NCBI GenBank assembly: GCA_040882465.1
Contig: JBBEBG010000026.1
Location: forward strand, 1-46,507
Source: Gemmatimonadota bacterium
GTDB lineage: Bacteria; Gemmatimonadota; Gemmatimonadetes; Longimicrobiales; Gaopeijiaceae
Direction: 5' to 3'
DNA length: 46,507 nt
The position numbers and the translations under genes are program-made. Below are positions 41,830-44,406 of the stretch, in pieces. Numbering within the stretch: the stretch's first letter is position 1; each line of letters opens with the position of its first letter. The notes beneath the pieces were generated by a model. It made no database searches. It was not told the origin of the DNA and was given only the letters and a program-made list of their open reading frames with translations.

Positions 41830-42249
41830 TCAGGTTCCGGTCGGATCGGGAGTGCGGGGAGCCGGAACCGGAGCCGAGGGAGCGCCAAACTGCGCCCACT
41901 GGGTCGGAGTCTCCCAGACGCGGGCGTAGAGGAGCCCTCCCGCGATCTCGCCGGGGAGCCTGGCTTTCAGCGATTCGTAGAAATATCGGGCCTGGTTTTC
42001 GGCGCTCGTCTCGACATCGCGAAATTGCGGGAGGTCGTTCAGGTTCTGGTGGTCGAGTCCTTCGGCGAGCTCGCGAAGGTGGCGCTTCAGCTCCACGAAG
42101 TCGAAGGCGATCCCGGCGCGGTTCAACGTCGGGGTCTGGAGCGCGACCTCCACGATGTAGCGATGTCCATGAAGGCGCTCGCACTTTCCTTTGTAGTTCC
42201 GGAGAAAGTGCGCCGAATCGTAATGGGCCTGCACGCTGACCGTATACAT
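41830..42249 (-). CDS. 6-pyruvoyl-tetrahydropterin synthase / QueD-family protein (first paralog)
   Basis: A 139-residue T-fold enzyme. The zinc ligands are His14, His28 and His30 (AHFLRNYKGKCERLHGH), and the catalytic Cys23 is two residues before the RLHGH motif as in QueD (6-carboxy-5,6,7,8-tetrahydropterin synthase). FDFVELKRHLRELAEGLDHQNLND is the other conserved block. A QueD role in queuosine synthesis is likely, since the Cys-x-RLHGH form differs from the second paralog at 43634. ATG 42249 is used. A C-terminal proline-rich tail is unconserved. Confidence 0.8.
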   Translation of the reverse strand: MYTVSVQAHYDSAHFLRNYKGKCERLHGHRYIVEVALQTPTLNRAGIAFDFVELKRHLRELAEGLDHQNLNDLPQFRDVETSAENQARYFYESLKARLPGEIAGGLLYARVWETPTQWAQFGAPSAPVPAPRTPDPTGT

Positions 42250-42307
42250 CGTCCGTCTTCGCTTTCGTGCTGGTGACGAGGATTCTCGGTCGGGGTCATT
42301 TCCCCGA

Positions 42308-43035: not shown

Positions 43036-43647
43036 TCAGCTGAGCGGGTGGTGCTCGCTCTGGCAGAGGCGGAGAAACTCGTCCCGCGTCCGCGCATCGT
43101 TCAGAAAAGACCCCCGCATCGCCGAAGTGATCGTGTAGGAGTTTTGCTTCTGGACACCCCGCATCATCATGCAGAGGTGATAGGCCTCGATTACGACCCC
43201 TACGCCCTGCGGTTCCGCAACATCCCAGAGGCTTTGGGCGATCTCCTCGGTGAGGCGCTCCTGCACCTGGAGACGCCGCGAAAAGAGGTCCACCAAGCGC
43301 GCGGTCTTCGAGAGGCCGAGGATCCGGCCGTTCGGGATGTACGCGACATGCACCTTCCCGAAGAAGGGGAGCATGTGGTGCTCGCAGAGCGAATACATCT
43401 CGATGTCCTTCACGATCACCATGTTGTGATGGCGCTCCTCGAAGAGCGCATCCCCGATGACTCCCCGCGGTGACTGCTCGTATCCCTGCGTGAGGAAGCG
43501 GAGCGCTTCCTCCACCCGCTGGGGGGTCTTCAGGAGCCCGGGGCGTTCGGGATCGTCCCCGAGCTTCAGGATCACCTCGCGGATCAACTCCGCGATCGGG
43601 ACGTCGGCGAGCCTGTGCTCGGTGGAAACCACTTCAGTCGCCTTCAT
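43036..43647 (-). CDS. folE: GTP cyclohydrolase I
   Basis: A 203-residue FolE. The zinc-binding [27 protein letters not shown] and the substrate loop [19 protein letters not shown] are invariant family blocks, with the third zinc ligand later in [16 protein letters not shown]. It converts GTP to 7,8-dihydroneopterin triphosphate, the entry point for folate, tetrahydrobiopterin and, via QueD, queuosine. ATG 43647 overlaps the upstream PTPS stop by 14 bases. Confidence 0.96.
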
Positions 43648-44050
43648 ATTCGGCTCGGTTCCTCGGAGTCTCGCGCAGTGTGAGGCGCTTCAGAGCCACC
43701 CCCTCCGGAAGCTCCGGGAGGAGTCGGTTCCAGATCGCCACGACCAGATTTTCGCTCGTCGGATTGATCCCCTTCATCCAGGGAACATCCACGTTCAGGT
43801 TTCGGTGATCCAGATCCCGGATGACGTGCTCCTCCGCGATCCGCTTGAGCTCCTTCAGGTCCACGACGTACCCCGTCTCGGGATCCACCTCCCTCTCCAC
43901 CGTCACGTCGAGCTCGTAGTTGTGTCCGTGCCAGTTCGCGTGCGCACACTCGCCGAACACCTCGAGATTGCGCTCGTCGCTCCAGTCGTCCCGGCGGAGC
44001 CGGTGCGCGGCCGAAAAGTGCAGCGTTCGGGTCACCTGGACTCGAGGCAT
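43634..44050 (-). CDS. 6-pyruvoyl-tetrahydropterin synthase (eukaryotic-type paralog)
   Basis: A 138-residue PTPS. The zinc ligands are His16, His41 and His43, with catalytic Cys35 ([20 protein letters not shown]). This spacing of Cys and the HGHNY motif, plus [28 protein letters not shown], follows the human PTPS pattern rather than the QueD pattern. It should convert dihydroneopterin triphosphate to 6-pyruvoyl-tetrahydropterin. ATG 44050 gives the standard length. It is the first gene of the pterin operon, 127 bases after a terminator-like structure. Confidence 0.9.
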
Positions 44051-44176: not shown

Positions 44177-44208
44177 AAAAAAGGCCGGCACCCTGTGGGA
44201 TGCCGGCC
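44177..44208 (-). terminator. Rho-independent terminator, minus strand
   Basis: On the minus strand GGCCGGCA (44208-44201) and TGCCGGCC (44190-44183) form an 8-bp perfect stem, with extra C-G pairs inside, and six T residues follow (44182-44177). This is a textbook intrinsic terminator, located 127 bases upstream of the PTPS start and downstream of a structured region, so it ends an RNA or an attenuated leader. Confidence 0.85.
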
Positions 44209-44370
44209 CAAGCCGTCTGCATCGGGGGGGTAAAATTGAAGCCCGGGTCGTACTTCTGGTGACCTCCCCTCGACTTCCGAAGTCCCCTTTCGGGGCGGGA
44301 CGTCCGTCTCGGGAGTCAGTCCCGGCTTCTAGTGCGTTGGCTCAATTCTCGAGCCCCCCGACACATCCGG
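44177..44370 (-). ncRNA. Structured RNA, about 194 nt (6S-like or leader RNA)
   Basis: Between a good promoter and a strong terminator lies a highly structured, non-coding minus-strand segment. The closing stem pairs GTCGGGGGG (44362-44354) with CCCCCCCGAT (44230-44221), followed by AATTGAGCC (44347-44339) with GGGCTTCAATT (from about 44243). Inside are a GNRA hairpin CCCCGAAAGGGG (44295-44284) and further hairpins. The length and the long closing stem with an unpaired middle resemble 6S RNA, the sigma-70 holoenzyme inhibitor. Alternatively it is a regulatory leader of the pterin operon. No long ORF fits. The exact start is inferred from the promoter. Confidence 0.55.
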
Positions 44371-44376
44371 ACCGGC

Positions 44377-44406
44377 AATATAGGGGGGTCGGGGGTGAAG
44401 CGTAAA
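44377..44406 (-). promoter_or_regulatory. Sigma-70-type promoter for the structured RNA
   Basis: On the minus strand, TTTACG (44406-44401) and TATATT (44382-44377) are separated by 18 bases. The -10 box is close to consensus and the -35 box keeps TT.AC. It lies just after the nfo stop codon, so it can start the RNA independently. Expected start is near 44370. Confidence 0.6.

Follow-up and report, generated by a model that had tools for sequence, protein, structure and literature searches.

A very probable 6S RNA, divergent in sequence, upstream of pterin genes in a Gemmatimonadota bacterium

The minus-strand locus described here lies within a stretch of 46,507 nucleotides (the window) from a Gemmatimonadota bacterium. 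Judged from sequence, it is very probably ssrS, the gene of a divergent 6S RNA. We base this identity on homology to the Rfam 6S family (RF00013) established through relatives, on the rod-shaped fold and on the pRNA template. 6S RNA is widespread; it mimics an open promoter and in this way blocks RNA polymerase. The preliminary description of the locus had named 6S RNA as one of two readings, and this idea is supported by the same three lines, not by a direct Rfam match on the window.

Locus organization

Read along the minus strand from 44406 to 44177, a promoter is followed by a structured RNA of about 190 nt and then by a terminator:

44377–44406, minus strand: sigma-70-like promoter TTTACG-18-TATATT, recognized by promoter search and by its conserved -10 hexamer
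44177–44371, minus strand: 6S-like RNA as transcribed, with the start placed about 6–7 nt past the -10 box and the end at the T run
44177–44209, minus strand: intrinsic terminator, a GC-rich 12-pair hairpin plus U run, supported by folding, terminator search and conservation
43634–44050, minus strand: PTPS family gene (PF01242, 120.5 bits), the downstream neighbour outside the RNA, which follows the RNA in most loci

The -10/-35 pair reported before is present at 44406–44377 and is the sole promoter-like match within 700 bp, where shuffled sequences lead one to expect 0.0. In an alignment of 56 loci the -10 hexamer reads TATATT in 34, with A2 in 56/56 and T6 in 54/56. Identity per column of the box is 77–100%, and the spacer upstream of it is mostly unconserved. 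The terminator is likewise there as described, its stem (44209–44182) running into a T run. Such terminators are by count not unusual (0.7 expected from shuffles); the GC-rich hairpin is kept 3' of the RNA in most relatives of the 56-sequence alignment. No conserved ORF was seen within the RNA locus, which agrees with the ORF-less RNA of about 194 nt proposed earlier, and the spacing of 127 bases to PTPS also holds, the start codon lying at 44050, downstream of 44177. The minus strand of the locus folds at -96.1 kcal/mol, whereas shuffled sequences average -76.4 (z -4.2). We regard the feature as going beyond chance because a plain DNA search, run on 98 related genomes, recovers the RNA from 65 of them at about one per genome, the -10 box is conserved and covariation is strong.

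Comparative structure of the RNA

Comparative folding gives an unbranched rod with a closing stem, a central bubble and an apical stem. At its base, P1 (11 pairs) and P2 are separated by a small internal loop; the central bubble (15 + 13 nt) follows, and above it lie P3 and P4 with an internal loop between them:

44354–44364, minus strand: 5' arm of closing stem P1, partner 44229–44219; compensatory change in 10 of 11 pairs, 93% of cells paired
44219–44229, minus strand: 3' arm of P1, supported by covariation
44339–44345, minus strand: 5' arm of P2, UUGAGCC, partner 44243–44236; 98.7% of cells paired; equivalent to CuGAgCC of RF00013
44236–44243, minus strand: 3' arm of P2, GGCUUCAA, supported by covariation; equivalent to GGuUCaA of RF00013
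44324–44338, minus strand: 5' strand of the central bubble, with the predicted pRNA start at 44336; bubble size as in the RF00013 consensus
44245–44257, minus strand: 3' strand of the central bubble; a small hairpin is possible in some families (L054, L059, L061)
44306–44323, minus strand: 5' side of apical stem P3, GGGAC...CUCCCGAGAC; compensatory change in 10 of 15 pairs (helices 3 and 4)
44258–44274, minus strand: 3' side of P3, GUC...GGGAG-GUCACC, supported by covariation
44284–44295, minus strand: terminal hairpin P4, CCCC-GAAA-GGGG; 94.6% of cells paired, loop unconserved

In alignment A1 (56 sequences), 24 of the 37 pairs show compensatory change with both sides altered. A total of 92.5% of its cells pair, in comparison to 85.8% in shuffles and 43–62% when the partner is slid. 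Covariation in relatives, to which the preliminary description had looked for a decision, is therefore strong and exceeds both controls. RNAalifold, run without an input structure, recovers the same rod independently, and in L054 and L061 P2 has an A-U pair swapped to G-C in a compensatory manner. Class-wide, compensatory change reaches 32 of 37 pairs, in an alignment which was fitted to the model and is thus biased towards its structure. The GC-rich closing stem noted earlier coincides with P1, and the GNRA hairpin with P4; the stem of the latter is conserved, but its GNRA loop is not.

Several other foldings were discarded. The multi-branched molecule obtained by single-sequence folding was replaced by the rod from the comparative data, while a hairpin in the 5' part (CGGGA-CUGAC-UCCCG) was dropped since its 3' half varies without compensation. 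A competing helix of GAAGCC(G)GG with CCCGGGCUUC fits most sequences and fails in L054 and L061, where P2 compensates instead. Separately, we observed that the bubble's 3' strand holds a small hairpin in L054, L058, L059 and L061, e.g., CCAGUCGU-UUG-ACGACUGG in L061. It resembles the hairpin reported opposite the bubble in B. subtilis 6S-1.

Distribution in Gemmatimonadota

We built a covariance model, R1, from 56 relatives of the window, none of the loci matched by RF00013 being included. It detects the RNA in 287 of 298 Gemmatimonadota genomes, nearly always once; in the genome of the window, the match at 44375–44216 (152 bits) is the sole copy. The 6S RNA thus appears to be near-universal in the phylum and to be missed by the standard model. 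Named records bearing the core motif belong to Gemmatimonadota with one exception, L168 (PBPM01000090.1), which is labelled Rhodospirillaceae. Its gene order, fumC-nfo-6S-PTPS-folE-SDR, is as in Gemmatimonadota, and the contig is probably a mislabelled bin.

In the sister family f3, a 6S-like copy (R1 matches L207, L210, L211 and L212, in G059, G075 and G063) stands immediately 5' of a tRNA gene, for which a CAT anticodon was read from the sequence. In G075 and G063 this copy is additional to the one preceding PTPS-folE, and the extra copy is probably a 6S-2 paralogue.

A literature search, the scope of which excludes the principal survey by Wehner et al. (2014), retrieved no work naming 6S together with Gemmatimonadetes or Gemmatimonas, so we make no claim of priority.

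Gene context and the pterin neighbours

THF-II (folE motif), THF-I and preQ1 riboswitches are located upstream of folate or queuosine genes. The second reading of the preliminary description was an attenuating leader or riboswitch that matches neither the THF nor the preQ1 consensus. The mismatch was confirmed, no Rfam match to THF-I, THF-II or preQ1 being present in the window. A cis-acting leader governing PTPS-folE by termination versus read-through would agree with the order of promoter, structured RNA, terminator and gene, and PTPS or folE does stand next, in the same orientation, in 49 of the 60 loci that offer enough sequence; this arrangement recurs across families and in many relatives at class level. 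Yet these genes are absent downstream in 11/60. The next gene is reversed in L017 and L044/L049 and unrelated in L025, L027, L034/L037 and L036. In G004, whose genome is a single contig, about 15.5 kb separate folE from the RNA, and in G003, G017, G038 and G047 folE is found on another contig. No second RNA precedes the distant folE, as R1 matches once in each of these five genomes. The RNA also persists in the extra copies before a tRNA gene. Furthermore, Rfam riboswitch matches are lacking in the window, and we saw no covarying alternative pairing that could act as an antiterminator. Since the RNA occurs with unrelated or reversed neighbours, with folE far away and before tRNA genes, a pterin leader or riboswitch is unlikely, and we consider it highly improbable. 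The RNA is an autonomous gene not bound to folate or queuosine genes, with PTPS-folE as a syntenic neighbour and not an obligate target; the linkage between the two is old and strong, yet not obligatory. A folate gene, fau, is likewise found behind E. coli ssrS.

Several relatives (L022, L024, L028, L042, L046 and similar loci) have a post-RNA hairpin without a clear U run and a PTPS start close behind. From their sequences this suggests read-through or a different 3' end, and read-through of this kind is what a leader would call for. Under the 6S identification, it is conceivable, though rather unlikely, that where the terminator has lost its U run the 6S RNA would also read into PTPS-folE, giving a dicistronic transcript that would couple pterin/folate synthesis to the polymerase-sequestration switch.

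As for the pterin genes themselves, two PTPS-family genes on the minus strand of the window (41830–42300 and 43634–44050) lie on either side of folE and an SDR gene. With 90.7 bits the second PTPS-family gene passes the QueD cut-off of 89.25, and the first falls short of it. A biopterin-like cofactor could be the joint product of FolE, PTPS and an SDR.

Relation to known 6S RNAs

At gathering thresholds Rfam finds one tRNA and nothing else in the whole window, and RF00013 gives no match there up to E = 10. Lax thresholds yield chance matches at the locus, the best reaching 16.7 bits where the cut-off is 50, and neither 6S nor a riboswitch among them. Nor was a 6S RNA found with RF00013 anywhere in the genome of the window, and eight relatives searched up to E = 1 gave 0 matches. 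Over the 298 genomes of the phylum, three RF00013 matches exceeded the model's cut-off and a number of others scored lower. The Rfam/Infernal scan for 6S suggested in the preliminary description was therefore negative on the window, but positive in the relatives L068 and L069, which score 56.6 and 53.3 bits (cut-off 46.4); L070 and L071 follow with 42.3 and 40.5 bits. At the same places R1 scores 58.0 bits for L068 (E 2e-11), 33.3 for L069 (E 9e-6), 36.5 for L070 and 75.2 for L071.

In total, R1 matches coincide in position with 29 of the 30 RF00013 loci; therefore both models describe one RNA. In all RF00013 loci except L067, the landmarks TTTTTTGAGCC, CATGCC and GGGCTTCAAAA recur in identical or closely similar form, and many of these loci are positioned upstream of PTPS-folE. 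The RF00013 alignments put CuGAgCC, the GGG/CCC pair at the top of the bubble, GcAaGCC/GGGAAgCc and GGuUCaA at matching positions. Sub-threshold RF00013 matches at the R1 position also occur in the window's own order (L203, L205, L212). We conclude that RF00013 misses the lineage as a whole, and that this failure is a matter of database threshold, not a biological feature. The R1 model fills an annotation gap (287/298 genomes, versus 3/298 called by RF00013), and its alignment could extend RF00013.

The window RNA shares with 6S/SsrS of RF00013 its length, the unbranched rod in which a central bubble separates the closing stem from the apical stem, the UGAGCC and GG(C)UUCAA sequences beside the bubble, bubble strands of 15 + 13 nt that fit the consensus, GG at positions 4/5 of the pRNA template, a promoter of its own and a near-universal, usually single-copy presence in the lineage. 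It differs in falling below RF00013 detection, in its short, GC-rich closing stem and in the PTPS-folE neighbour.

R1 did not match E. coli ssrS. The phylum-wide model R2, applied without filters to 2.2 kb of E. coli sequence, placed its top score within ssrS, on the right strand and in the right register, at an insignificant 8.6 bits (E 0.096). The best RF00013 score of the phylum, 62.5 bits, belongs to L067 (G326), which R1 does not match and whose genome has a separate R1 match; it may be contamination from another phylum.

pRNA template and proposed mechanism

The pRNA is predicted to begin GUUGGCUCA. Its template position, 44336, is the third base past GCC and the counterpart of U44 of E. 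coli 6S RNA, position 44 being the E. coli pRNA start. The E. coli pRNA begins AUCGGCUCA, identical to the window prediction at 7 of 9 positions. GG occupies pRNA positions 4/5 in 56/56 sequences, and GG at these positions is a hallmark of proven pRNAs (PMC8414754). The base just before the start is the expected A in 41/56 and G in 15/56, including the window.

This template bears on whether the RNA might instead be of the Ms1 type known from Actinobacteria, i.e., 6S-like in shape, binding core polymerase and not serving as a pRNA template. Ms1 has a 6S-related structure and core polymerase as its binding partner, and its discovery came through synteny after similarity searches had failed (PMC9130861; PMC4191392). 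Shape and elusiveness to similarity search are common to both RNAs. In contrast to Ms1, the window RNA has a pRNA template with its conserved GG, and the relatives that link it to 6S score with RF00013 itself, which makes an Ms1-type RNA very unlikely. An unrelated structured sRNA with a convergent rod shape would explain why the window has no direct Rfam match, but is exceedingly improbable given that R1 and RF00013 reciprocally overlap on the same loci and that landmark sequences match on either side of the bubble.

The known biology of 6S RNA comprises promoter mimicry, sequestration of the polymerase and its release by pRNA synthesis (PMC12005410). By analogy, the rod of the window's 6S RNA would mimic melted promoter DNA and would occupy the housekeeping sigma-70 RNA polymerase holoenzyme as cells slow. 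On outgrowth, the polymerase would take the bubble as template and make a short predicted pRNA, 5'-GUUGGCUCAAUUCUC, starting opposite 44336; this pRNA would open the closing stem and the enzyme would be released. The pRNA prediction is ready for testing. Its first base is G, like that of the B. subtilis 6S-1 pRNA, whereas the E. coli pRNA starts with A.
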